Assembly (NCBI GenBank): GCA_963924555.1
Contig: OZ004591.1
Span: forward strand, 4,216,001 to 4,280,000
Length of the DNA stretch: 64,000 nt
Source: Crambe crambe
Taxonomy: Eukaryota > Porifera > Demospongiae > Poecilosclerida > Crambeidae
Reading direction: 5' to 3'
Numbering within the stretch: position 1 is the first letter of the stretch; every line of letters begins with the position of its first letter. The translations under genes were made by a program, and so were the position numbers. The notes under the pieces were generated by a model. The model saw nothing but the letters and a program-made list of their open reading frames with translations. It was not told where the DNA came from and made no database searches. This document shows positions 4,652 through 62,040 of the stretch, piece after piece.

Positions 4652-7600
4652 TCACTCAAATGTTTGGATATTGTCCAGGAGTTCAGCAGCTGAGGGTCTG
4701 TTGTCTTTGTCTTGCTGAATGCATCGTCGGATCAAGTCCACCCAGTGCTGGTCTTGGATGGATGCTATGAACTTCTCACGAGCTGAGACTTCAGGGAATC
4801 GACAAGTGCACATCTCGACAAGGAGCACCCCAAAACTGAAGATGTCCATCTTGGGGGACTGGAGGGAAGGTTTGTGTGCCTCTGGGGCAGCATACACAGG
4901 AGAGCCTGGTCCCACGGTCTGCAGTTGCTGCTGGAAGTTGACTGAGCCATAATCGGTGACTTTTGCTCTCCAGCATTCAGAAGGGAGAGGTTCGAGGAGG
5001 ACATTGGCACTGCTGATGTCGCGATGGACGATGGGGTCTGGCTGTATCAGGTGGAGGTAGTTGAGGGCTCTGGCCACATCTAAACTGATGGAAGTCAGTT
5101 GATGTGCTGACATGTGGAAATCTACCTTCTCCATTTCTCTCCTCAAACTAGTTGGCATTAGCTCCATCAATATCATCATGCCTTCATCCATGCAGGCTCC
5201 GATGAACAGCACCAAGTTAGGATGTCGGATTCTGGAAGCCATGTCCATCTCTCGCATGAAGAGATCTTGGTAGTAGCCAGTCCTGATGGACTTGTAAAGC
5301 ATCTTGGCAGCAACTTTGACTCCTCTGAATCTTGCAACCTTCACTTCTCCCCAGCCTCCTCCTCCCAAACTCTCTTCTGTGATGTCAATTTCTCTTCTTT
5401 GCACCACCCAATGCCTCTCATCACCTCTTCTCTCTGCCTCCCTTGCATGCTGCTCAGCTTGTTGCACCCTCCTCTCTGCTTGAGTAGCTCGCTCCTCAGA
5501 TATTTGCAGTTTTCCTTCAGCTTCACGTGCTCTTCTCTCTGCTTCTGTGCATCTCCTCTCAGATTCCTTTGCTTGTTGTTCAGCTGCTTGTCTTCTTTCT
5601 GCTTCCCTAGCTTGTTGATTGGACTCTACAGGGGAAGGCATGAATTTTATATTGGATCTCTAGAATGTAGCTCTCTCTTTAGCTATGTGCACTATCCCTT
5701 CAGCTATTAGAGATTATTATACCTGCTGACACTCTCCTCTCAGCTTCCCTGACTCTTTCTTCCAGATCCCTCACCACTTTATCCCTTCCAGCTACACCCA
5801 CTGGTCTTGCTATTACTGCACTCTGAGTATTTTGACTCATCTTCACCATTTTCTCCCTGATCCTCTCACTTGTCCCTCGCTGGCTGTTGTCAGCTACATC
5901 TGTCAGCATCCACTCTCCAGTGAGGGACTGCAACTCTGTAAGATAACAAGCATTGTGAAGCTGGGATTGTCTCCTATTAGGAGATATTGTAATTTCTGAC
6001 CATTGAATGCATGACATGTTGTGTATCATTACATCATTATTTAACAATGAGCAATTGAATAGTACTGTGAACTATTTTCCTTTGATGTTGCTAAAGGAAT
6101 GCAGATATTCTTGATATATTATCATGACTTTCTGATCAATATGACATGTTGATATTACAGTATCATCCTTTCTTTCACTATCTGAGCAATTGAATAGAAC
6201 TATGAGCTACTTTCCTTCAATACTGCTAAAGGAATGCAACATATTCTTCATTGTAGTGATCTGATCTACAGGGAACATTGATTAACTGTTCAGCGAGTGA
6301 GCTGATCATGACTTATTGTGTATTCAGTCAGTGGATGCAGTGAGTAAAGCTGATTTGCACTTTGTCCTAGTAGCTATAATAAAAGGAGCCTCACCGAATC
6401 GTAGCACAGTGGTCATGGACAACTTCTTGAAGTCATTATCAGTCTTATAATTCTTTGGTAACTCAGGACAACCACCAAACATGACAACCTCTGTCACTCC
6501 TGGACTGATAGTAGAAGCAGCAGCACGATGCAAAAATCTTGGCTGGAGACTTGAAACTTTGATCTGCACATCATGCATGTGTTTAAATATACACCTGTAC
6601 ACAACATTTGAACAGGACAGCTGAGCTGAGCGGATATCAGCTACAGCAAAGTATGGACACATGTCTATTGTTGGATGGAGCACGTTTGGAATACTCTCAT
6701 CGTTATGACACAGTTCAGGTGAGGTATTGAGCCTGTCACTCAGTAAATCACATTCACTTACCTCTTTCCACTTCCTTGAGTCTAGATCCAATATCCACAC
6801 GTCACTTAGTATCATATTAGCATCAAGTCCCCCAGTCACTAAAAGTTTAGGGTTGTCCCCACCATAGCCCAAACAGACTGCAACATGAGAACTTCTTCCC
6901 ACTGGACGAGGTATTCCTTCCTGATGGTCAAGTTTACTCCAGTACTGCATAAAGGTACACAATAGGGAGGAAAATCTATCGATCATATGGAGGATAGCTA
7001 TGGCACTTAGTTACCAATAATGGCACGTTTTAATTCATAAATCTCACCATAGTGCTCAAGTCTATGATAAATGCATCATTGCTCCTCTTAACACATTGTG
7101 AATGTCTACCCCCAAACAACACTGCACGGTGGCCATCATTCATGTTAAAGGAGAAACCAGCACAGGGAGGTGGCCTCGTCCCACTGACATCAGGGGAGGA
7201 CCATGTACCTGCAATGGATTCATAGGAATATCTGTTACGTAGTAACTGAGTCTTAAATGGAGCACAGCATGTACAGATCATGAAATGAAGTATTACTTCA
7301 TCATGTGTAATTGTTACAGAACTATGACACTGATTAAGTTCTAGGACTGCATCTTTATAGTGAGATCTTCCAGAACTAACAGGTATAGAGGGAAGGAGGT
7401 GTCTGGTCAAACTCTTACAATCGACGTGTTCTGAATATCAACTTTTTTCTGGGTATTTGCATCATGTGATATCATGGAAGGGTTATAGCCTCGTACCCAG
7501 GCCTATTTCTTAGGCCTGGGTACGAGGTTAGGAAAGGCTATGGAATTTTGCATGAGGATTGTACTGTTACTATGTCATAGTCAGTGAGGTATAGATAAGA

Positions 7601-8544: not shown

Positions 8545-8985
8545 GCATTTTATCAGAGAGCGCATAGGACTAATACAAAATGATCTCACAAAACAGTAAG
8601 TTGTAGCTGCTATGACTGCTTATCCTGTCTTTTATGCACATTCTTATCATGCAGGAGAATTTTGGAGGCTGAAAGACTCAACACGGAAGAATAACAAAAG
8701 CGCACTTTTTCATATCAGAGAGCGCGGTAGCGCTCTCTATGCAGGGATGACCTATGACCCTCCATAGGACTAATACAAAATGAAGTTGGATTTTCCCAGA
8801 AAACAGTAAGTTGTAGCTGCTATGACTGCTTACCCTGTCTCTTATACACATTCTTATCATGCAGGAGAATTTTGGAGGCTGAAAGACTCAACATGAAAGA
8901 ATAATAAAAGCGCACTTTTCCATGATTTCTTATCAGAGAGCGCAGTAGCGCTCTCTATGTAGGGATGATCTATGACTGTCATGCC
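8545..8985. repeat. About 200-bp unit present twice in tandem
   Basis: Two copies of a roughly 200-bp unit start near 8562 and 8763 (both contain CATAGGACTAATACAAAATG). Each is bordered by an imperfect palindrome of the type GAGAGCGC-GGTAG-CGCTCTC. The same repeat flanks the large transposon at 46,274-46,301 and 61,835-62,035. The stretch at 8951-8976 is therefore an uninterrupted version of that element's target site. Confidence 0.8.
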
Positions 8986-47057: not shown

Positions 47058-47104
47058 GTAGGGACATAGATACTATAACCTCCGGACACGGGATTGGAAA
47101 CGGG

Positions 47105-47617
47105 TGGTTCGCGCGAGATTTTAGAATACAATCCGCGTTGTTTGCTGAGTCAGCAAAGACGTTGCCAAACAGTAGTGAAGGCAAGTATTTCGCAAATAAT
47201 GGCTGAAGCTATAGGAGAAACGTCTTCAACTACAAGTAAGCATAGTAAATTAAAGATTGTAACCTTAAATCCAGCTATGTAATTCACTTTTTAGGCCCCT
47301 CTCAGTGAGTCTGAGATATTAATTCAGGCAGTAAAAGAAGGTAGCTAATGGGTTTAAAATTCCTTCATCAGATGCTTCTGCATCTCTGCTATGGATTAAA
47401 GCAAAACTTGAAAGCTGACATTCATTCCTGCAGTCCAGGCACCATGCATATAACTCTCTTGCAGCTAGCAACATAGTCCAAAGGAAATAAGAAAACTAGA
47501 AAAAGAGGCTAAATGCAGGAAATTTTAGCCTAGACGTAGGAAGTTTAAAACTAATGCAGGAAGTATCAGATGAGTGTGGAACAAGGCACGTAAGTATCAT
47601 ATTTTATAATATAATAG
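47105..47617. other. Left subterminal region of the large element
   Basis: An ATG at 47,200 opens a short plus-strand exon ending at a GTAAGC donor. Possible exon-like pieces follow (about 47,296-47,340 and 47,372-47,419), but their phases do not join without stops. It may be the relic of a third gene. Confidence 0.3.
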
Positions 47618-50600
47618 CTAGCTATAATTCATGTTTGCTTGGAGATATTCCCGAGACTTCTTTTTTAGCCCCCCTTTCTTCGTCAGTTCAAAGCCATATA
47701 ATAAAATGTCTTGTAGAGATATAGTGCCTACAGCATTCGATGGATAGAAAAATCGAAGCCACTTTGGCTTATGTATGGCTCGTTCTTGATCCATCCAATG
47801 AACTGTGACATCTGAAGTTAATGATGGATTAGGAGGAATAGACACCACTCTTCCAACTTTGGGAAAACTTGCACTATTTGTTGTAGTTGCAATGAGCATA
47901 TCCACTTGTAGCTGCTTTACTATGTCTTGGTTCTGGACTACTGTGCTCCTTGAAGTTCCGATGTATATCTATAATAGCAAAAAAAACAAAAAAAAAACTG
48001 GAAGTGCAGGAGAGGGACCATTCCCATAAGTGCAGGAACAGTTCCTACACTTGGAAGGACCCATCAATAGTGCAGGAACAGTTCCTACACTTGGAAGGAC
48101 CGATCCAAAGTGCAGGAACAGTTCCTACACTTGGAAAGACCATCAATAGTGCAGGAACAGTTCCTACACTTGGAAGGACCATCAATAGTGCAGGAACAGT
48201 TCCTACACTTGGTTCCTACACTTGAAAGGACCCATCAATAGTGCAGGAGCAGTTCCTAGACTGATCCAAAGTGCAGGAACAGTTCTTACATTTGGAGGGA
48301 TCGATCCAAAGTACAGGAACAGTTCAAAAGACCTATTCAAGTGCAGGAACAGTTAGTTCAAATGGACAGCTAGTTCCAACACACTTTAGGTGCCCACAGT
48401 AGCTAGCTTCCATACATGCTCCACTTACATCCGGTAGTTGGTGTTTATCTTCAGTTAAAGTTGCAACTAGATCCTCGCCCAAGACAGATGTTGCCAACTC
48501 TTTTTTATCCTCAATTGTCTGACTGAAGCTCTGTTGTTCCTTCCAAAGTCCAGCAATCGGTGGCAGAGCTTTCTCTTTGTTTGTTGCTCTGCAGGTCAGA
48601 TGGGAAGAGCAAAGTTCAAGAGCTTTTCGGACCTCAGGGTGTGCACTCTCTTTTAGCCCAGCTACAATGAAAGCCTTATTACACTGAGCAGCCAACTCCT
48701 GGAGTTCTTTCTTTAGTGTTGCAGTCTGTGTAGCTGTCTCTTGCTGGGCCAAAGATTTTTCAATTGCATGTATCTGCACATATAACAACTTGTCAACAAA
48801 AATACTACATATACGTATGTAGTTACCCCTTTGTATCCAATCCATGCTGTTCGCAGTTCACCAATTCCTTCAATTGTACATGGAAACTGCTTCTGTGTTG
48901 ATACCAGCTTCTGAGTTGATATGATTTCCAGTCCAGATCCATCAGATGCTGGACCTGGAGACATTGGTGTGGATCTTGGAACTTGTGCACCCTTAATCAA
49001 GTCTTCGAGAAAGTGTTGGCCTGCAAAGGATTATGCATATAATAACTTCAATGTGTTTTAAGCCAATCACCTTCAACTACTTGGGGTTCCATTGGTTCAA
49101 CACATTCCTTTGCTTCTTCCATCCAGGAAACCCACCACTCGGATGCACTAGGACTGGCCTTGTTGAGATATGGACTAACTTTTCTTAATGTAGTTTCCAA
49201 TTTTTTCAAGTTTTCTAAATCGTAGTAGGGTTTGAGGATTAATGGTTGCTTAGTTGGAATATTGTTGCCACAAGGCAGAAAAACAAGTCCACCTTGAGGT
49301 AACCAAAATGTATCTGTACTCCATTCCTTATAGAACATCATGCATTCACCAAATTCATTACATTGGAACTTGAACTGGTGGGCCTTGAGATGGTCGTGTA
49401 ACAATGGAGTTTGCTCCAGCATCCATGCCTTGACATCAGTGACTGAGTCTAGAACCACAATAATAGGTTGGGGAGAGAAAGAGGATTGGATGGCTTGACT
49501 TAGTTCTGTAAGAATAGTATAAAAATCAATTTATATACATACAGGCTGCATGCATGGTCACCTGGAATAGTCAATGCATTGCGATGCTTCAGTCGCCGTG
49601 AAATGCATGAAAATGTTTGATCGATATCTTCATGGGTGTGACCCACAGGTAAAAAACCAAACTTGACCTACACATCATGTAGTAATAGTTGATACTGGCA
49701 TGCGATTATACTTATGACTTGTACCTTTCTGAACACTCCAAATTCAACTAACAAAGCTGCAAATGTCAGCGTAAACTTATTTTTATTGTCACGACAGGTG
49801 TTGTCCATCTGAACTAGCAACACTTCTGGCAATTTTCCCTGCAGCTAACGTCTTACATTAACTATTATTATTTTTGATACTTCTAAAATAAATACCTTGA
49901 GCTGATGAAACACTCGCAGCAGAACTTCAACTGTCAAGTTAGAGTCATGGCTAAACTGTCCGCAGTCTATAAACATCATAATTATTAAACCGGCCATGAA
50001 CCTTAACTCCAGTGACATGGGTTTCAAGTTTGTAGGCACCAGCCATCACTTTGGGATTATTGATGATGTGGGGTATGTCAGTCTTTGATTGATCCATACC
50101 ATCGATAATCAAACTCAAATATTTCTCTGGATTCTTCTCTGCCTTCCGTCGATGCTTAGCATACTTCTCTCGTTCACTCCTATAGATTAAAAAAGTCCTG
50201 TAATTTTACTTATGTATAGTATGCACTCTCTGAGTACTTCTCTAGTTCAATGTGTTGCTCTAAAATTTCAGTCAACCACATTCTAACGGTGTTATTTAGT
50301 GTCCTTTCTCGACCCTCTTTGATGGCAGTGCATACATCACACTTTGAGAAACGGCTCTCCTGTGTGGTATAATTATTATAATTAATTCCTTCCGATTATA
50401 TATTGTTTGTTAACTACCTTGGGAATCTTTACATGGGAGAAATTCCGGTTCCAAATCTCATAAAATGTAGAAATGCTACAGCATTGCAAGCCTCCTTGAG
50501 ATAGGTCATCATTTGCTAAGGAGTAGACATCGGCTTTGGTGAGGCAAGCAGGCAAATGAATTGCTGTAGAAGTTGGCATTCTATCCCCAACCTTATCACT

Positions 50601-51345
50601 AAATGTATGCAACCAACTTGTGACCCGGATACTGGAGTCACTAATTTCACATCTTCCTAGTCTGCCATGCTCAGCTAACACAACTCCACTTTGATACTTT
50701 AGTTTCACAGCAGCAAATCTATTGTATCTGAATCCATACACCATCCCGAAGCACGTCTCACAAACTTGCTGACCACCCACTGTGTACAGAACATCCTCAT
50801 CTCCTTGACTATGTTCTCGCATATAATTCAAGATGAGCTGAATCTGTTCAGTTTCAGATAGCGAAAAAACAGTAGACCTGATTCTTTCTATGGTGGCCTG
50901 TGACAGCAACTTGAAGCATGTAACCTGTTTTCGCTGGCAGCAGCAACGGGTCATTAGACTATCTGTTGAAAACTCGGGTTGCCCTAAGGTGCAAGAGTTA
51001 ATAAGCTCTGGTCCTGATCCTCACACAAGTGTGTGATTACCTTATTAGCTATTACAGGTATGCTACTTTACCACTATTGTGATATCAAGTGTGTTGGATT
51101 ACTAGTAAATTATAATAATGCATCATTCAATTCATTTATGAGCTATCAACTTGAACTCTGCATGCTTAACTAATACGTAGTAGCCTTAAGGCAATTGAAT
51201 ACATGTCCATACCTCTGGTTCTCTTCTTTGTAATTGATGAGGAATCACAATTGGAGGTCAATGGAGGGAGCATCTCTAAGCCACTGGTGGATGAATTGCT
51301 ATCATCAAAGCAGTCAGAAGTAGCAACTGACAAAATACATTCCAT
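47618..51345 (-). CDS. DUF7869-like, transposase-like protein of the large element
   Basis: The ten-exon model is complement(47618..47968, 48429..48773, 48827..49020, 49071..49505, 49562..49667, 49725..49838, 49896..50179, 50238..50359, 50418..50962, 51213..51345), about 875 aa. All junctions agree in phase apart from one extra base near 49,965-49,990. Residues about 60-270 are cysteine-rich (CCCQRKQ, VCETCFGMVYG, FSKCDVC). The core carries IIDGMDQSKTDIPH, THVTGVKVHG, HDSNLTVEVLL, LVQMDNTCRDNKNKF and VGHTHEDIDQTFS; its spaced acidic residues look like an RNase-H-fold active site. The C-terminal exon (VHWMDQERAIHKPKW, LYGFELTKKGGLKKKS) is typical of the same family. DUF7869-type proteins occur in plants, oomycetes and invertebrates, often in repeated copies. 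A transposase role is inferred from the motifs and from the terminal repeats around it. The start at 51,345 gives a 155-bp head-to-head gap with the ParB-like gene. Confidence 0.8.
48025..48355. repeat. Left array of a 21-bp palindrome (about nine units)
   Basis: Units of about 38-40 bp carry GTGCAGGAACAGTTCC followed by TACACTT. The first 21 bp are almost self-complementary around a central A (arms GTGCAGGAAC and GTTCCTACAC). The first five are near identical; later ones decay. The array lies in the last intron of the DUF7869-like gene, about 1 kb from the element's left end. The same core is arrayed at 59,622-59,850. Confidence 0.9.
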
Positions 51346-51500
51346 CCTGGCAAATTTGAAATTTGAAATTTGAATTTTGTCCAGTAAGCTAAAATTGTCC
51401 AATGACCTTGCTTCTATTTCAGAACATTCTAGAACTGCAAAAAAAGCCAGCCATGCTTTTTGTGGTTTTGTATTTGCTCATGCAAGTAAAGCTGAAAAGA
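51346..51500. promoter_or_regulatory. Putative bidirectional promoter of the large element
   Basis: The two start codons face away from each other across 155 bp containing direct repeats of AAATTTGA (51,352-51,375). No clear TATA box is seen. Joint control of both genes is inferred from the spacing. Confidence 0.45.
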
Positions 51501-54500
51501 ATGAGTAGTGTGAATATAAGTAAGGTTTCCTCAAAGCCCTGGCATCTGACTTTCTCTCCTGAAGAGAAACAGATGTATATATGGAAGGGTGGTTCCCGGA
51601 TGAAGCTGGTAGATCAAAGCTCCAGTGGACCAGTGATATCTGCATCATTTTTGAATGCAGATGTTGTAAACGTAAGTATAATAAGTCAGTATAGCTAGTA
51701 GTTATTGCTAGGTACCGCTGACCTGACTTATCACCACTGTCCAATTAGGATTTTGTCATTTGAGCCTTAAAATATCCCCATTTGAATAACAAATGAAGCA
51801 TACTAGAGTAGTGTGCAATATATTGACGAGCACATATTCCTCTGGGTTTTAGAGCTGATAGGCTCTTTAAATTAAAGTTATGTAAGTGGCAGGCAGCTTT
51901 GTGCATCACTAGCCTAGCACATACTACATGCTAGAGCTATATATCTATGAGTCATGAACTATAAGAGTCAGCTTGCCTGCAGAATCAAGATTTTTCCAGC
52001 TCTATTCACAGTCCCATTAGCTATCAAGATTCTGTTCAATTTCTTGTCAAAAATGTTATTTATTGCTCTACAGTTTAAAGGCCATGCAGGGAACGGGAGT
52101 AATCGGTATAGTTTCAACTGCCAGCTTTCCAAATTTATAAGTGACGCAAATGGGTTTTGTGCTGAACTGGCTCCATTTTTGTCTGATGCAAAAAATTTCT
52201 GCACACAATTGTGCTCCAAGACGAATGGGGTAGTTAGTCTCATCGGTGAGGCAGCATCTACAGGAATACCATCCTCTTCCTCCTCGTCATTGTCCTTGCC
52301 ATCATCAGCCTCATGTGGTCAAAAGAGGGGAAGCAGTACTAAGGCACCTAATGCCAAGAAGAAGAAAGGTGGCTATCAGGAAAAGATGAATATTCTTGAA
52401 GAAGAAATTCCTGATCATCAAATAGGTATGCAATTATAGCAGCATGATTCATCAGGCAAGTGAGTGTTGACCACATGCACGATGCTGGGCATGTGACCAG
52501 ACTCTTTCCCACCTTTGTGAAAGTCTGGTCCATGAAACTAACAGTATTAGCTACACTGTAACTGCAATTGGGTACTATGAGACTTAGTCAGCATGAGATA
52601 TGGCCAGCTGACGGTGAGAGATATTCGGCTAAGTGAAATAAACTGACAAGTGCAAAAAATTATCAGTGCATAACTACATATATCTGTAAGAATATAGGTA
52701 TGTTACTGATGTGTGGCACTGTATTATTATCCTTAAATAATAATGGTGAGCCATTGATTTCGGTACATAGCACACATAAAAAATTTGTGGTTAATTATAG
52801 CATGCTAGCATCCACTGTCAGAATATACCATAACCTTTTATGACAGGTGTTTATGACCTTCCCATTGACTTGTTGAGGGAGCCCCCAGATTACCTAAGAG
52901 TGAGGGAGGTAAAAGAGTGGTTTGTAGAGTACCTGGTGGACATGCTCAAAGAAGAAGAGTCGGATCATGAGGACCTGACTGCTCCCTTACTTGTAATAGC
53001 ATCATGCAGTAAGGGGAAATTCAAGCCAAGACACCTAGAGAAATATACCTATGAAGTGCGTACTAGTATGACAATTTCTATGTTTTGGTATTAGACATAC
53101 ATAATGTACTTATAGGTAATAGGAGGGATACAACGGTGGCATGCCATTAGGAAGGTCAACACTATTGCCACTCGTAAAATTGCCAGTAGAAAGTGTGCAG
53201 TATATGGAAACGACATGTCAAGGCCAGCAGCTATGATGTTGGCGAAGCAGCACAATGAGTTCAACACCATTCAACGAAAAACAGGGTTTGCTGAATTGGC
53301 TGGATGCTGCCGAAAGCTGTATTTTGTGCACTTTGCAAAGGACGGGGAGAATGATGATGGGGTAACTGATCTGCCCAAACAACATTACAACTCAAAGCCT
53401 TATAGGGCCTTTAAGCAGGAATGCTTGGCACTTCTATTGAGTTCCCAATCAGTATGTACAACTAAATGTGCATAGCTAACACTATTATGTGATTTTGTAT
53501 AGAGCCAAGCAATGATAGAGCAGGCAATCCAAATGGCACTGCAGCCAGCTACTATCTATCACAAGATGCAAGAAGTCTTTGCAAAGTATGAAGACGGGAA
53601 GTTAAAAGGCCAGAAAGAACGGTTCATGAAAGGAGTCATGCTGCAAAAGGCTTTAGATGGAAAGTTGGCTGCCAAGCTCCCCCAGTTCAAGATTTTTCAG
53701 GGACTTAGTGTAAGTATTGGTTCCACTAAACCACCAGTTAGCTAATTATGATAAATTGTTACAGGATACTGACAAGGAGCAGCTTTTAGACGGACTGCTG
53801 AACAGTTCATTCAGTTTTGATGAAGCTGAGGAGAGGAGTGTAAGGCTGAAAGCATTGGTCCAGAAAGGGAAAACTCCACCAAGAAGTTTCAAAGTCAGTA
53901 AGTGTGGTAACTGGTAAAGTACCGTGAAACAATTAGTATATTTTGTGGTTATTTTATGTTGTAATTATAATGAGTGTGACTACCGGTATAATTTTTATAT
54001 AATATCGCGTTTTAGTCATTTTTGTAAGTTGTCAGTTCTATCAATAACTTTGAGATATTACCCTTGATTGAGATATTACATTTGGCGACGAGGTGAAAAG
54101 ATGGCCACACATGGAACTGTGTCACCCTTTTATCCTAACAAAGAGAGCTGGACTAACTATGCGGAAAGGCTCGATCACTATTTTCTTGCGAACGATGTGG
54201 CTGACGCTGGAAAAAAACGCTCCATTCTTCTCTCTGCATGCGGACCCCAGACATACAAACTGATCCGCAGTCTCATCGAGACACCTGCTACCCTGAATAC
54301 GACGAGCTACGCCGACATTGTCAAGCTAGTCAAGGATCACTATGAGCCGAAACCATCAGCGATAGTGAAACGATTCCAGTTCAACACTCGGGTTCGAGAG
54401 CCCGGAGAAACTATTGCTTCTTACATTGCAGCTCTCCGTGAGCTCGGTGAGCATTGTAGCTACGGAACTTCTCTTCCAGAGATGTTACGAGATCGCCTGG

Positions 54501-57500
54501 TTTGTGGCGTCAATCATGATACAATTCAGAGGAAGCTCTTAGGTGAGACAGAACTTACCTATGAAACAGCACTTAAACTTTCCCTGGCAATCGAGACAGC
54601 AGAAAAAGATACTCGTAACCTCCGGGACTGCAAGAACAGTACCAATCCCAGGGTTAATTACATGGCTACCAAATCTACAACGTTAACCTCGACTAGAAAC
54701 AAACGTCAACTCCCGTCTAACCAGGGAACTCTGACCTGTTATAGATGTGGTGGAGCACATCTTGCTCCAGCATGCAAGTTTATCGAAGCAGAGTGCAGAT
54801 ACTGCAAGAAGAAAGGTCACATTGCAAGAGTGTGTCGCAGTAAAGCTCAGCAAGAATCCAAACCCAAAGCAGGAAAACAGACTCACTACATGCAGGAGGA
54901 CCAGGACCACGCCCACGATGAGGATGGTGCCTATGCTATGTTCACTATACGGGATAATGCAAGTGAGCCAATTGTATTGGAAGTACTCTTAAACAGTGTT
55001 CCGATCGAGATGGAGTTAGATACAGGTGCATCCACGACCATCATCAATAACTCTACTTATCAGTCGCTCTTTGAGATGGAGAAGGTAACCCCACTTAGCC
55101 CTTCCACCATACACCTAAAGACATATACAGGTCAGCCAATTTGTGTCTTGGGTACTGTTTCTGTCAAAGCCAAGTACATGGGAAAGGTGGCTGATGTATC
55201 TATTCAGGTGGTCACTGGGGATGGGCCTAATCTCATGGGTAGAGACATGCTGTCTCAACTTGAGGTCAATTTGGGGGAAGTGAACCTTTTGACGGATGTT
55301 ATTGATAATCCACTACAGAGATTATTGAATAAACATTCCATACTATTCAATGAAGAATTGGGCTGTATGAAAGATATGAAAGTCAAATTGCAAGTCGATA
55401 ATTCTGCTAAGCCCAAGTTTTTTAAACCACGTAGTGTTCCTTTTACACTTAAGGAGAAAGTTGAAATTGAATTACAGAGGTTAGAAAACCTTGGTATTAT
55501 CTCTCCTGTAAAGTTCTCTCGTTGGGCAGCACCCATAGTCCCAGTAGTCAAGAAAGATGGGAATGTCAGAATATGTGGGGATTATAAAGTGACCCTTAAC
55601 AAAGCTGCTCTAACAGAATCATACCCAATACCCCTAGTGGACGAGTTAATGGCTGATTTGGCTGGGGGCAAGTATTTTACTAAGTTGGATATGTCCCATG
55701 CTTATCTTCAATTACCCCTCGAAGATGAGTCAAAGGAATTGGTTACAATTAATACCCATAAAGGGTTATACAAGTATAACAGGTTACCGTTTGGAGTGTC
55801 ATCAGCACCCGCAATTTTTCAGCGTTCAATGGACACCTTATTGCGAGGACTGAATGGTGTCTCAGTTTACCTCGATGACATCCTCGTAACTGGCTCTACA
55901 CCAGAAAATCATCTGGCAAATCTGGACGCTGTCCTAGAAAAGCTAGAGCAAGCCGGACTACGCCTCAATCAAGGGAAGTGCTCATTTCTGCAACCTAACC
56001 TGGAGTACCTGGGGCATGTAATTGATTCAACTGGCAAACATCCCACTCAGGACAAAGTTAGGGCAATCAAGGAAGCTCCCTCTCCCAGGAACGTGACAGA
56101 GCTACGCTCTTTCCTTGGGATGATTACTTACTACAGCAAATTTCTCTCAAACTTATCTTCTAAGCTAACCCCGCTCTATACCTTGCTCCGGAAGAATCAA
56201 CGATGGTCTTGGGGTACCAAAGAAGAGACCGCATTCCAGTTAGCGAAGGATGCCCTACAAACTGATGCAGTCCTCGTGCATTATGACAGTTCCAAACCTC
56301 TCATCCTTGCTTGTGATGCTTCACAATACGGAATAGGAGCTGTCCTGTCACACAAAATGGAAAATGGACAAGAGCGTCCTATAGCCTATGTTTCCAGAAC
56401 TCTCAATCCAGCTGAAAAAAGATACTCACAGTTAGACAAGGAGGCATTGGCTATCGTATCAGGTGTCAAGAAGTTCCATAACTACTTATATGGACGCAAC
56501 TTCATAATTGAGTCTGACCACAAGCCTTTGTTCTATCTTTTTCATCAAGCTAAACCGATTCCACAGATGGCATCTGCAAGGATACAACGGTGGGCCCTTA
56601 CCCTTGCAGCCTACAATTACAGCATTCGGTACAAAGAAGGGAAGACACTATGCAATGCAGATGCACTGAGCCGTCTCCCTTGTACGCTAACAACATCCAC
56701 AGATAGCACGGCTGCACCAGCAGAACTGATCCATTTGATTGAACATCTGGACTCGACCTGTATCTCTGCAGCTAATATACAAGATGGTACGACTAAAGAT
56801 CCCTTACTTTCCCAAGTCAGGAGATTCATCCAGCTTGGATGGCCAGAAGAATCGCCTGGACCAGATTACAAGGTCTACTTTTCGAAGAAACAGGAACTCA
56901 GTGTCCTTGATGGCTGTATTTTACGTGGATCACGAGTCCTTGTTCCACTCCAATACAGGAAGTCGGTACTTGAGGAACTCCACCGAGCACATCCAGGTGT
57001 CACCAAGATGAAAGGACTAGCACGCAGTTATGTTTGGTGGCCCCGTATGGACCTTGAAATTGAAGCGTTAGTGAAGGAGTGTACTCAATGCCAGGAATCA
57101 CGACCATCACCATCGGCAGCGCCACTTCATCCTTGGGAGTGGCCGGCAAAACCTTGGAGCCGAATTCATATCGACTTCGCCGGTCCGTTCTTAGGACAGA
57201 TGTTCCTTGTTATTGTGGATGCCCATTCCAAATGGATGGATGTCAGGATTATGCATTCGATCACAGCAACCAAAACCATCGAACAGCTCAAACTTGTTTT
57301 CTCCACCCACGGGTTACCACAAAAACTGGTTTCCGATAACGGTCCAACTTTTACGAGTCAGGAATTTCGAGATTTCATGACACGCAATGGAATTGTCCAC
57401 ATTACTTCTGCACCATATCACCCTTCTACGAATGGGTTAGCAGAACGAGCAGTCCAGTCATTCAAATTGGGGATCGAAAGGATCAAAGGTAATTCTATCC

Positions 57501-59519
57501 AAGATCGACTTTCAACCTTTCTATTTCAATACAGAATTACTCCACACATAACCACTGGAGTACCCCCGGCAGAACTCCTTATGGGTCGTCGTCTTCGATC
57601 CAGACTTGATTTACTATTTCCAGATTTAACACCAAAAGTTCAAAATCAGCAGTTGAAGCAGAAACAATCGCATGATTCAAAGAAACCTCTTCGTACATTT
57701 AATGTTGGTGATCTCGTTTATGCTGAGGATTTCACAGCTTCACCGACAAAATGGATTCCAGGAAAGGTTGTAAAAGTTACTGGACCCCTATCTTATTCCA
57801 TTGAATTGTCTGACAGCACCATTGCTCGTAGACATGTTGACAGTGTGCGGGCTCGAGAAAGTTCTCCAGCTATTTCTGGCAATACTGCTACAGATCCACT
57901 AGCATTGCCTGATTTACACATTGAGCTGCCAGTGCTACCTCCTCCACCTCTCAGACGTTCAACTCGAACCAGGAATCGACCTGATCGATATGGCAATTAA
58001 CTTATTTTACTCCTAAAAGGGGGGGAGTGTGGTAACTGGTAAAGTACCGTGAAACAATTAGTATATTTTGTGGTTATTTTATGTTGTAATTATAATGAGT
58101 GTGACTACCGGTATAATTTTTATATAATATCGCGTTTTAGTCATTTTTGTAAGTTGTCAGTTCTATCAATAACTTTGAGATATTACCCTTGATTGAGATA
58201 TTACAGTAAGCTTCACTATTGATTTTAAGTCTTCTTCTATTATAATATTATATATCAGAGGGCTAAAGCTGCCATGTCTGGGCATCCCCAAGTGGTTCCT
58301 GTGATGGAAATTGCATGCATTTCCATGCTGGTGGCAGACTACACCCAACTTGGTCAGGTTGATTTTGAAGGCTGTTCTTTAATTCTATTGAGTGTCAAGG
58401 ATGTAAGTGCTTAGTATGCATTACATGAACAGTACACAAAACCAATTTTGTGTGTGCATGAGGACACATGCAGCAATTTATACTTGATTTAATGGGGAAT
58501 TAATCTTTTGCACATCAATGTTGGGTTATTAATTTTTAGTCAGCATATTGTGTGCATGCAGGTATGTTCCGATATGGTGCACAGTGTGACTTCTTCATTA
58601 GGGCTACAGAACTGTGCTGTCGCTATTTATAATATTGAAAATAATCCATTGCTGAAAAAATCAAAGCCATCTGCACTGCCTGTGGTGCCATGTACAGCCA
58701 TGTGTTCATGGTGACATCTGTTCTGCGTATTGCAGGTAAGTGTATAGCTGCATTAGTTACCAAAAATGAGATTAACATACCCAAGATCGATCATCAGGAT
58801 AATTAGCTGTGTACTTTAATGTGTATAGATGAGGCGTCTGTTGGAGTGTGCGTACCAATTGTAGTATCATGGTGGGGACCTGATCCTATACCAAATGGGC
58901 ACATTCTCACTGATGCTGAGAAGAATGAAGTCAACTCTTTAGTTTGCTACCCTGAACAGGAAGACACCATGATTTCCAGCTTATCATCCATGGGCTGGAT
59001 CAAGCTCCTCCTCAGAACACATCCAAAAATGGTGGCAGATATCTACAGTACATCTGGTAAGTGTACACAGCAAGGTAATTAATTATCCACTCTGACATCA
59101 TAACGTCACAAATAGGTGAACTGACTCAACTGTGTTTGGAGGAAGGGATTGTGTGCCATTCTGTTCATGTCTCCAAAGAAACTGCTAAGTTGCTGGCAAA
59201 CCAATTGGGACATGTGTTAGGAGAAGATGAAGGGGGGACAGATGGTGAAGATCTTTTAGATGGTGAAGATTTTTTAGATACTGAAGATGTGTTGAAACAA
59301 TTGAACGAAGCAGAAAAGATTGCTAAGGATGTTCTGCAAGATGGCGAGAAAGGACAAGATGGCAAAGATGACGATGGACAAGATGGGGAGAAAGAACAAG
59401 GGGAAAGAGCAGAAGGTGGGGAAGGATTAGAGATGCCTGGAAATCAAGTGGATGGGGGCAGAGTTACAAGAAGTAAAAGTCGGGGTATTAAGATGGCAGA
59501 AAGTTGGAAGAAAGACTGA
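51501..59519 (+). CDS. ParB-like domain protein of the large element
   Basis: The ten-exon model is join(51501..51671, 52074..52425, 52847..53055, 53116..53451, 53503..53709, 53765..53893, 58259..58402, 58562..58735, 58829..59056, 59116..59519), about 784 aa. All phases agree except for one base missing, probably in the A run at 58,655-58,660. Residues about 176-330 follow the ParB/sulfiredoxin-fold pattern: LPIDLLREPPDYLRVREVKEW, TAPLLVIAS, then the signature box VIGGIQRWHAIRKVN and a segment ending LAKQHNEFN. In ParB the equivalent box contacts CTP while the protein loads at palindromic parS sites. Downstream are a lysine-rich helical region, a segment with CTACGAMYSH, and a very acidic tail with DGE and QDGEK repeats (about 690-784). 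A nested Ty3/gypsy element lies in the intron between exons 6 and 7. A role in binding the flanking palindrome arrays is inference. Confidence 0.78.
53903..54080 (+). repeat. 5' LTR
   Basis: 178 bp with TG...CA ends, identical to the LTR at 58,028-58,205. It would supply the element's promoter; a TATATAA-like stretch lies near 53,997. Confidence 0.95.
54081..54095 (+). promoter_or_regulatory. Primer binding site of the retrotransposon
   Basis: TTTGGCGACGAGGTG directly follows the 5' LTR, where minus-strand priming occurs in LTR elements. The complementary tRNA cannot be named from this window. Confidence 0.7.
54101..58000 (+). CDS. Gag-Pol polyprotein of the Ty3/gypsy element
   Basis: I take the ATG at 54,101 as the start because the open frame further upstream runs into the LTR and primer-binding site; this gives 1299 aa in one frame. 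Domains in order are: a Gag-like helical region; two zinc knuckles (CYRCGGAHLAPAC, CRYCKKKGHIARVC); an aspartic protease with LDTGAS; reverse transcriptase with YLDDILV; RNase H with LACDASQYGIGAVL; an integrase zinc domain ending CTQCQ; and an integrase core with HIDFAG, SDNGPTF and AERAVQSF. All catalytic signatures are present. No chromodomain is visible at the C-terminus, which instead has a proline-rich, basic tail. Gag and Pol are fused without a frameshift signal. Confidence 0.97.
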   Translation: MATHGTVSPFYPNKESWTNYAERLDHYFLANDVADAGKKRSILLSACGPQTYKLIRSLIETPATLNTTSYADIVKLVKDHYEPKPSAIVKRFQFNTRVREPGETIASYIAALRELGEHCSYGTSLPEMLRDRLVCGVNHDTIQRKLLGETELTYETALKLSLAIETAEKDTRNLRDCKNSTNPRVNYMATKSTTLTSTRNKRQLPSNQGTLTCYRCGGAHLAPACKFIEAECRYCKKKGHIARVCRSKAQQESKPKAGKQTHYMQEDQDHAHDEDGAYAMFTIRDNASEPIVLEVLLNSVPIEMELDTGASTTIINNSTYQSLFEMEKVTPLSPSTIHLKTYTGQPICVLGTVSVKAKYMGKVADVSIQVVTGDGPNLMGRDMLSQLEVNLGEVNLLTDVIDNPLQRLLNKHSILFNEELGCMKDMKVKLQVDNSAKPKFFKPRSVPFTLKEKVEIELQRLENLGIISPVKFSRWAAPIVPVVKKDGNVRICGDYKVTLNKAALTESYPIPLVDELMADLAGGKYFTKLDMSHAYLQLPLEDESKELVTINTHKGLYKYNRLPFGVSSAPAIFQRSMDTLLRGLNGVSVYLDDILVTGSTPENHLANLDAVLEKLEQAGLRLNQGKCSFLQPNLEYLGHVIDSTGKHPTQDKVRAIKEAPSPRNVTELRSFLGMITYYSKFLSNLSSKLTPLYTLLRKNQRWSWGTKEETAFQLAKDALQTDAVLVHYDSSKPLILACDASQYGIGAVLSHKMENGQERPIAYVSRTLNPAEKRYSQLDKEALAIVSGVKKFHNYLYGRNFIIESDHKPLFYLFHQAKPIPQMASARIQRWALTLAAYNYSIRYKEGKTLCNADALSRLPCTLTTSTDSTAAPAELIHLIEHLDSTCISAANIQDGTTKDPLLSQVRRFIQLGWPEESPGPDYKVYFSKKQELSVLDGCILRGSRVLVPLQYRKSVLEELHRAHPGVTKMKGLARSYVWWPRMDLEIEALVKECTQCQESRPSPSAAPLHPWEWPAKPWSRIHIDFAGPFLGQMFLVIVDAHSKWMDVRIMHSITATKTIEQLKLVFSTHGLPQKLVSDNGPTFTSQEFRDFMTRNGIVHITSAPYHPSTNGLAERAVQSFKLGIERIKGNSIQDRLSTFLFQYRITPHITTGVPPAELLMGRRLRSRLDLLFPDLTPKVQNQQLKQKQSHDSKKPLRTFNVGDLVYAEDFTASPTKWIPGKVVKVTGPLSYSIELSDSTIARRHVDSVRARESSPAISGNTATDPLALPDLHIELPVLPPPPLRRSTRTRNRPDRYGN
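58015..58027 (+). promoter_or_regulatory. Polypurine tract
   Basis: AAAAGGGGGGGAG lies immediately before the 3' LTR, the expected plus-strand priming site. Confidence 0.85.
58028..58205 (+). repeat. 3' LTR
   Basis: Identical in length and sequence to the 5' LTR; followed by the GTAAG target duplication. Confidence 0.95.
58655..58660 (+). other. A-run frame break in the ParB-like gene
   Basis: The exon 58,562-58,735 enters in one frame and leaves in another, and is one base short of the length its neighbours require. Adding one base to the A6 run would keep the reading open to the donor. It is either a one-base deletion or a homopolymer sequencing error. Confidence 0.65.
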
Positions 59520-59621
59520 AGCTTGGACACATACAATATACCTATAACAATGTTTATGATTCATGATTATTGGTCCTTTACAGCACTTTTAAATATGGAG
59601 TGAATTCTGGCTCAAGTACAG

Positions 59622-59850
59622 AAACGTGCAGGAACTGTTCCAGTATTTTGTGTGTGCAGGAACTGTTCCGGCACTTCATGTGTGCAGGAATTGTTCCAGC
59701 ATTGTGTGCAGGAATTGTTCCGGCATTTTGTGTATGCAGGAATTGTTCCAGCATTTTGTGTGTGCAGGAACTGTTCCGGCACTTTAGAGCAGCGGCGTGT
59801 GTGCACAGGAACTGTTCTGGTACTTTGAGTGGCAGTATGTGCAGGAAATA
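59622..59850. repeat. Right array of the palindrome (about eight units)
   Basis: Units of about 25-30 bp carry GTGCAGGAACTGTTCC followed by GGCACTT or AGCATTT, the same AGGAAC-centre-GTTCC core as the left array with a T centre. The array begins about 100 bp after the stop codon of the ParB-like gene and about 2 kb from the right terminus. Later units diverge. Confidence 0.88.
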
Positions 59851-59879
59851 TTTTGGCAATAGATCAGCAGGAACCAATA

Positions 59880-60660
59880 TCCTACTGCATCTTGCAAGTG
59901 GATCAGTCTAATTTCACTTATATCCCGGTGCTGGGGGTGCTCTCTCTCAACATTCCTCTTCAATTTTGTGGGAAACTTTACACATTATCTGGACTTTTGT
60001 AGGAAGCATACTTCCTACTTTTTGAAAAGTGAACGTAAAATTAACTAATTTTATCCCCCACAACTTTGATTTATGCCCTAGCTCTCTCAATTTTTTTCTT
60101 ATTTCTTTCGGACTATGTTTAGCAAACTTGAAACAGCTCTGACTATTTAAAGTCAGCTGTAAACAAAGGTGGGAGTTTATAATTATAGCATTTGTTCATC
60201 GGATGAATTCATCTTAATGTGGAAGAAAATGTGATGAATTTCCCATCTTCCAGAATATCATCTGATTTTTTTTTTAGGTGAACATATAATGGGGGATCTA
60301 CTGTTACAGCAGCATGTCCTTTCTCTTATCAAGAGCCACTTTGAGGTATGCTGCTGGATACATATATAGAACTGTGAAGGACAGAGTCCATGGTATACTA
60401 TTGTAGGAGCAATTAAGAAATGTCATGTAGAAAAAAGATGAAATCATGGGAGAAGTAATGAATTGGTCTATATATTAGGATGAATGTCGAAATTGGGAAG
60501 GAGTTGCTGAAAATGATCATTGAAGGGTGGATCAAGATGAGGGAGTTCTCATTTGGTGACGCGTGGTTGAAACTTTAAGCAGAAGTCCCTCCAACATTCT
60601 AAAGGTCCTCATCACCAATAAATCAAGAATTCATGCAGCATGCATATTTTTTCTGAATGT
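59880..60660. other. Right subterminal non-coding region
   Basis: AT-rich sequence without recognised exons. The plus-strand frames are broken. Confidence 0.45.
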
Positions 60661-60664
60661 ATTA

Positions 60665-61130
60665 TAATGATTCATTCATGTTTGGAAATCATTCTCCACT
60701 TTGCATTTTCTTTTTCTAAATCAGGCTTGGAACTGTGAGCCCTGCAATTGCCTCTAACTGGACCTCTGCAAAATGTATTAATCACCCATAGTGCTTGAGT
60801 GTTGTTGATAAATTCCTTGACACTAGGATTATCATGAATTCCACCTCTTTGTCGCTGGCACCCACAAAACTTTTCAGTGGATCCTGGCAAAGGTGCTCAC
60901 TCAAAAAAAATTTTTTCACTCCATCAATGGAAAACAGAATATTCCATTAATGATAATAGAATATTAGCAAGCTAACAAGAAGCTCTAGCTAGCTAGCTAC
61001 CTGTCATTTTCAAACCCAGCAAGGTCTCAGGGCTAAGGAGCATTTTCTTTTTCTCAACTTTGGAAAACCCTTTCATTGCTTTTATACTCCATCCTAATAG
61101 ACAAGAAACTCTTCCTTTAGCCACTATATA
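60665..61130 (-). pseudogene. P-type (THAP9-like) transposase remnant
   Basis: On the minus strand an exon at about 61,110-61,012 reads SIKAMKGFSKVEK, KMLLSPETLLGLKMT and ends at a GTAGCT donor. A second piece at 60,900-60,665 reads HLCQDP, then after a one-base shift CGCQRQRGGIHDNPSVKEF, NTQALWVINTF and GPVRGNCR. This is the C-terminal catalytic region of P-element-type transposases. The rest of the gene is absent, so it cannot be active. It lies inside the large element near its right end. Confidence 0.65.
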
Positions 61131-61139
61131 TAAAATAAA

Positions 61140-61788
61140 ATGTAATAATAAAAATCATCACAGGTAGGAGTATAACCATGCATTTAGTTCAGAGTTGACC
61201 CAATTGGGTTTTTAAAGTTTATGGTTATAGCATATTTATGATGTGTAACTTAAGGCTTACACTAAAAGTCAACTCCTCTAACTATGCACATGCAAAACTA
61301 CTTTTATTTTACTACAACATCAACTAGTTATTTTTCATAGTAAACTTCTCCCAGACTGGTAAATTGAGCACACAATTACAAACATTAATGGCCTCCTGAA
61401 CTTACAAAACCCAGATTTTTTCCCAGTAATATTCAAGTCTTAGGGGAAAAAAGCATTCTATAACAAACTTTATCTCTATGTATACCATTTGGTGGAAAAA
61501 TTAATGCAAAATAGTTTAATTCAACACAGAAAACCTTTCACACAGTTTTCTTCTCCAGGAATTGACCAACCACGGCAAAACTAGCCATATTAATGAACTA
61601 GGGTTTAAATTTTTGTTTTAAGTACCAAAATGAGTAGTATAAAGTATTAGATAAATTATTTTCTTACCGGCTCGCTCTATTCATCCGCTTCAGAGTGCTG
61701 TCTTCATTCTCCTTTTATGTGCAGTCAACAAAAATTACAACGCGGAGTGCACGCAAGCAATTCAATGGTTGTCATAGGCGCACGTGAG
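61140..61788. other. Right end of the large element, no genes
   Basis: AT-rich with a GC-richer final 100 bp leading into the terminal repeat. No exons are recognised. Confidence 0.45.
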
Positions 61789-61834
61789 CCCGTTTCCAAT
61801 CCCGATCCCGTGTCCGGAGGTTATAGTATCTATG

Positions 61835-62040
61835 GTAGGGATGACCTATGACCCTCCATAGGACTAATACAAAATGAAGTTGGATTTTCTCAGAAAACAG
61901 TAAGTTGTAGCTGCTATGACTGCTTACCCTGTATTTCATGCACATTCTTATCATGCAGGAGAATTTTGGAGGCTGAAAGACTTAGCTAACACGGAAGAGC
62001 AGTAAAAGTGCACTTTTTCATGATTTCTTATTTTCTTGTT
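61835..62040. repeat. Right half of the interrupted target repeat
   Basis: This matches 8733-8935 (GTAGGGATGACCTATGACC, CCATAGGACTAATAC, AACAGTAAGTTGTAGCTGCT, GGAGAATTTTGGAGGCTG). Its left half is at 46,274-46,301. Together they show where the large element inserted. Confidence 0.85.

Follow-up and report, generated by a model that had tools for sequence, protein, structure and literature searches.

We analysed a window of 64,000 bp from the genome assembly of the sponge Crambe crambe (GCA_963924555.1, contig OZ004591.1, positions 4,216,001 to 4,280,000), in which a first-pass annotation had described positions 47065-61834 as one large transposon carrying a divergent pair of genes, encoding a DUF7869 protein (gene A) and a ParB-like protein (gene B), with palindrome arrays near both ends. 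We found that this stretch is made of three nested elements, namely an outer terminal inverted repeat (TIR) element, a two-gene element and a Ty3/gypsy insertion, and that the genes and the arrays belong to the second one, a real transposon that has been mobile recently, as its near-identical copies indicate. This element is probably best explained as a two-gene cut-and-paste transposon in which A would be a DDE transposase and B a ParB-fold helper that may bind the palindromes.

Three nested elements

The borders of the three elements are the following (strand is given where a feature has one):

47058..47064 and 61835..61841: 7-bp target duplication GTAGGGA of the outer element
47065..61834: outer TIR element, about 2.1 kb (47065-47469 plus 60124-61834), non-autonomous, split by the two-gene element
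47466..47469 and 60120..60123: 4-bp target duplication TAGC of the two-gene element
47470..60119: two-gene transposon, 12,650 bp
47470..47495, plus strand: left TIR of the two-gene element, 26 bp, 24 of 26 matching the right end
60094..60119, minus strand: right TIR of the two-gene element
53903..58205, plus strand: Ty3/gypsy long terminal repeat (LTR) element inside a gene B intron, with a single open frame of 1310 amino acids and a 5-bp duplication, GTAAG

At 47065 and 61834 the 40-bp inverted termini are indeed present, as is the GTAGGGA duplication; the first-pass annotation had assigned both to the gene pair, but they delimit the element of about 2.1 kb. In all 12 fetched copies of this outer element the genes are absent and window positions 47471 and 60120 are adjacent, so 47065-61834 corresponds to a 2.1-kb element split by an insert, and the borders of the gene-bearing element are 47470-60119, with a 4-bp duplication. 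Exact motif search recovered the empty site GCAGCTAGCAAACTTG in 11 of the 12, and these copies are better proof of the outer element's own insertion than the empty-site paralog previously proposed at 8951-8976, a 22-base match that hardly extends past the duplicated heptamer.

The left 201 bases of the outer element gave at least 41 matches in the same genome of 143 Mb (best 40 of 113 candidates scored; one match of only 37 bases) and the right 151 bases at least 40 (best 40 of 111 candidates scored). Nearly all scored matches cover most of the query, corresponding to at least about 40 copies, and many left and right matches are paired about 2 kb apart, the 12 fetched copies being of this kind. 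Both ends were found by motif in eight of them, and each of the eight is flanked by a direct duplication, 7 bp long in seven cases and 8 bp in one. Several outer copies are near 100% identical, and the longest stop-to-stop frame of the outer element has 74 amino acids.

The two-gene element was found in four copies, the window one, L019 (C10), L021 (C16) and L024 (C16), all starting with AACATAGTCC and finishing with GGACTATGTT, with the 4-bp duplications TAGC in the window and TTAA, TATA and ACCA elsewhere; outer sequence is absent around the other three. L019, of 8,466 bp and without the LTR element, is 99.75, 99.92 and 98.86% identical to the window over three blocks, L021 is 92.7 to 99.3% identical over the main blocks, and L024 has an internal deletion. 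L019 also contains about 125 bp (5944-6069) that are extra with respect to window 52684/52685, between the first exons of gene B. Two derivatives, L114 (C18; 0.7 kb, duplication TGTA) and L115 (C10; duplication imperfect), contain almost nothing of either gene and retain both ends and one palindrome array each, and further, more diverged end matches exist in the genome. Including the relatives described below, the 4-bp duplication is exact in eight of nine copies examined (TAGC, TTAA, TATA, ACCA, TGTA, GTCA, ATTT and ATAT; imperfect in L115). The proposal that genes and arrays form one mobile module thus holds for an element with its own exact ends. Termini confined to this locus, or genes in host synteny, which had been named as signs of a chance bracket, were not what we found, the termini of the gene-bearing element standing at several different places.

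The Ty3/gypsy element, omitted when the stretch was described as one element, is young, its LTRs showing no difference over 180 aligned bases, and is absent from L019 and L021. Its insertion point is the splice donor of the gene B intron, so the 5-bp duplication leaves a donor on either side of it. Nested insertion can thus give a gene pair wrong apparent termini, as happened in the first reading of this locus.

The gene pair and its predicted folds

The two genes and their main parts are:

47618..51345, minus strand: gene A, DUF7869 protein and putative transposase, 10 exons, with a frame break inside the fourth exon
51213-51345, 50418-51019, 50238-50359, 49896-50179, 49725-49838, 49562-49667, 49071-49505, 48827-49020, 48429-48773 and 47618-47968, minus strand: exons of gene A
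52053..59519, plus strand: gene B, ParB-like accessory protein, start and first exons uncertain
About 52847-53055 and 53116-53451, plus strand: exons encoding the ParB domain of gene B

The divergent DUF7869/ParB-like pair was confirmed, with 10 exons modelled for A and about ten for B, the first ones of B being uncertain. The gene A model, with X at the frame break, matched PF25273 with E 4.6e-68 and 229 bits against a curated cut-off of 26. DUF7869 has a predicted RNase-H-like topology, with VIA matches, and D237, D318 and E357 are conserved in the relative P0006. It models as a DDE/RNase-H (integrase-type) core with three acidic residues, in line with the comparison to DDE transposases that the first-pass annotation had suggested. 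A domain of unknown function would in this way gain a concrete transposase role, from its fold model, termini and target duplications. A small intron that would splice out the frame break was considered and rejected, since its removal would cost part of the conserved core, and we therefore treated gene A as broken.

With each exon counted separately, DUF7869 matched 47 times in this genome and not at all in 14 control genomes; in viral contigs, 92 pattern matches yielded no confirmed relative. The group is large and diverse, and some members are compact elements that have long open frames and occur as near-identical copies (L048 and L049, 99.9%). L048 is a fully bounded element of 2.46 kb with the duplication ATTT, and its copy L049 has ATAT.

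The gene B protein models as a ParB N-domain fold, supporting the ParB-like identity first given to it. The domain was modelled on the relative from C8, with an alignment of 10 sequences including the window protein. Support for both folds, DDE in A and ParB in B, comes from models, and searches of PDB sequences matched neither a ParB protein nor a transposase. A protein search with B by itself found no match at E 0.001 among 7992 scored candidates, while a three-sequence B profile gave 22 matches among 7996; in viral and prokaryote contigs, 15 and 17 pattern matches yielded no confirmed relative of the ParB domain. By eye, the C-terminal half of B had suggested a degenerate methyltransferase, an idea that was rejected, as sequence comparison gave no support: no N4/N6 methyltransferase domain matched in Pfam at E 10, a sequence-only test that a strongly diverged domain could escape, and single B sequences aligned by hhalign to a 22-member YhdJ-type profile scored under 1%.

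Conservation of the pair in divergent relatives

Both genes were also found head to head in two divergent relatives. In L025 (C3), gene A is 56% identical over exon 2, and the identity in gene B is 65% for a stretch of 51 residues and 41-44% for a longer one. In two exons of each gene compared with the window, the proportion of synonymous differences (pS) was 0.75-0.97, near saturation, and replacement differences were 0.14-0.32, indicating purifying selection on both proteins. The second relative (L059/L060, C8) is an element of 8,288 bp with a perfect TIR of 17 bp (31 of 34 bp matching overall) and the duplication GTCA, in which A is about 40% identical and the ParB part of B 27-33%. By eye, GATGAAAT/ATTTCATC motifs, distinct from the palindromes, are repeated at both ends of this element (joined L060 and L059), and they are possible transposase sites. 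At 15 further DUF7869 loci, all from other lineages, a tblastn search of the approximately 3.5 kb fetched for each recovered no gene B.

Palindrome arrays inside both ends

The arrays announced near both ends were confirmed beyond chance at these positions:

48029..48350: left array, within the final gene A intron (47969-48428), GGAACAGTTCC five times, spaced 39-40 bp apart and followed by degenerate repeats
59626..59785: right array, GGAA[CT]TGTTCC six times at 24-28 bp spacing, three of six perfect, about 107 bp past the stop codon of gene B

One palindrome occurs five times and a sister spelling three times, against a maximum of two in 200 order-1 Markov samples and three in 200 simple shuffles. 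The arrays lie about 330-960 bp inside each end of the element. The C8 element has a palindrome of other spelling, GGAAATTTCC, with six copies past the final confidently modelled exon of B and two in the presumed last intron of A (a by-eye reading, the automatic model having placed a doubtful exon there), and equally frequent palindromes were absent from 200 order-1 Markov samples of either element.

We then searched the 143-Mb genome for both spellings. TGCAGGAACWGTTCC gave 45 matches, against one for the backwards control, 37 of them in the four copies and eight in six places resembling the same element family, one of which, L117 (C11), has scant match outside the array itself. GGAAATTTCCACCAGA gave five matches, all inside the C8 element, and its control none. 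The TGCAGGAACWGTTCC palindrome is therefore restricted to copies or remnants of the two-gene element family. Eight of the 15 other-lineage DUF7869 loci, the other seven being copies of the same families, were tested for a repeated palindrome, and none of the eight had one or a detected ParB gene. In L024, at about 8657-8898, the right array is inverted with respect to the other copies, as if flipped.

Proposed mechanism and alternative explanations

In the sequence of events that we propose, the two-gene transposon (47470-60119) would have inserted into the 2.1-kb TIR element and later would itself have received the Ty3/gypsy element. The gene A protein would cut and rejoin the 26-bp termini, and the gene B protein, by the most likely mechanism, would bind the palindromes inside each end and, once bound, help to pair or mark these ends for the action of A. 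Binding of B to the palindromes, as candidate sites, is an assignment towards which we lean only slightly, and we infer that the part played by B would lie in transposition and not in maintenance or evasion of silencing. Since two divergent families, whose palindromes are spelled differently, have candidate binding sites at corresponding positions, the role of the ParB-like partner becomes directly testable. A more elaborate version, which we consider speculative and rather unlikely, is that of a ParB-parS module turned into a transposition device, in which B, perhaps a nucleotide-gated clamp, would load on the arrays and bridge the ends for the DDE transposase, palindrome spelling and B co-evolving from lineage to lineage under a constant layout.

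Several observations weigh against the proposal of a DDE transposase with a ParB-fold, palindrome-binding helper. Gene A is broken in every copy examined, with one fourth-exon break common to the window and C10 copies, other breaks in L021 and no middle part in L024. Foldseek on gene A was weak, with one match at E 0.001 or better (TM 0.2) and a list that includes NurA, Argonautes and unrelated folds. The ParB-domain models had low confidence in four of five cases (predicted local distance difference test, pLDDT, 42-49), one being confident, and gene B had no Pfam or NCBIfam match and a weak one to phrog_723 in three of 10 members (best E 0.0059). As for the palindromes, the eight loci free of them fall short of the two-gene elements in length (2.4-3.5 kb) and are fully bounded only in the case of L048, the 10 kb fetched for the degraded relative L025, which has B, contain no GGAA-TTCC palindrome, and deletion derivatives could retain palindromes so close to the ends through position alone.

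The alternative that survives best, unlikely but to be taken seriously, is that the palindromes are bound by the gene A transposase through an RFX-like winged-helix N-terminal part, B having another role. The best PDB match of the gene A profile is RFX5 (E 0.0051) and RFX_DNA_binding matches four of 37 gene A relatives (best E 2.8e-5), in some of them before the DUF7869 core, which suggests, from sequence matches, a winged-helix end-binding domain; moreover, subterminal repeats are commonly transposase sites, a point in favour of transposase binding. Against it stands the lack of a repeated palindrome at the eight other-lineage loci (with L048 alone fully bounded), an argument limited by the low identity of their transposases to gene A, only about 20-28% over aligned parts, with one short stretch of 37%.

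It is less probable still that the arrays regulate transcription or silencing, as their location in an A intron and just past B might suggest, with B acting on the element as a repressor of the KorB/ParB type or as an epigenetic accessory that marks it, because derivatives without working genes retain an array, leaving gene regulation no object, and no methyltransferase was detected by sequence, contrary to an epigenetic accessory. A single large transposon, spanning 47065-61834, bounded by 7-bp duplications and with the gene pair native to it, would explain why the outer termini and duplication flank the whole stretch, but this very improbable reading is refuted by the 12 outer copies without the inner element and by the three inner copies with 4-bp duplications and no outer sequence. 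Finally, host genes caught between chance inverted repeats, a reading that the host-gene-like structure of about ten exons per gene could favour, deserve practically no credence given four exact-ended copies with differing duplications and the 47 DUF7869 matches.

Comparison with known systems

The two-gene element resembles ParB/Noc-parS systems in the modelled ParB N-domain fold and in the clustered palindromes beside the gene, and differs from them in being a eukaryotic transposon. To our knowledge its palindromes are unlike parS, and the nucleotide-binding residues of gene B are presumably only partly ParB-like. No ParA gene was noticed in the element, although no search aimed at ParA was made. 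Within the open-licence papers searched, DUF7869 was not named and no ParB-carrying transposon of animals was found, the printed cases being algal.

Kolobok and KolobokP are described in the excerpted text of PMC9587614 as animal TIR elements with a DDD/E transposase and a TTAA-specific duplication, KolobokP having an accessory gene. The two-gene element is likewise an animal TIR element with a predicted DDE-type transposase and an accessory gene as in KolobokP, but its duplications vary by copy, TTAA being one of the eight exact ones. The Sola superfamily, according to the part of PMC10741241 consulted, has 4-bp duplications, very variable termini, sizes of mostly 2-9 kb and a DDD-type transposase. 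The two-gene element shares the 4-bp duplications and has a modelled DDE-type core, and by this comparison of descriptions it may be a Sola member.

The closest layout is that of Ectocarpus Sola1-1_Ec32, which, in the excerpted text of PMC12477816, carries a gene with ParB-like and methyltransferase domains on the strand opposite the transposase, similar proteins being cited for green and red algae. The first-pass statement that no described transposon has this gene pair was thus too strong, as a ParB-like accessory had been published in algal transposons. Both are large DNA transposons with a ParB-like gene opposite the transposase, a likeness of layout, and they differ in size (8.3-8.5 kb without the LTR insertion versus 21.5 kb), in host (apparently an animal versus an alga) and in the methyltransferase domain of the algal accessory. 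As no such domain was detected in gene B by sequence, we did not assign it to the algal ParB-methyltransferase accessory family. Paired palindrome arrays are described here for the two-gene element, and such candidate sites are not mentioned in the excerpted text of the algal paper (PMC12477816). A ParB-like transposon accessory was therefore already known in algae; what is new is an accessory with no methyltransferase detected in an apparently animal host, which extends ParB-carrying transposons apparently to animals.

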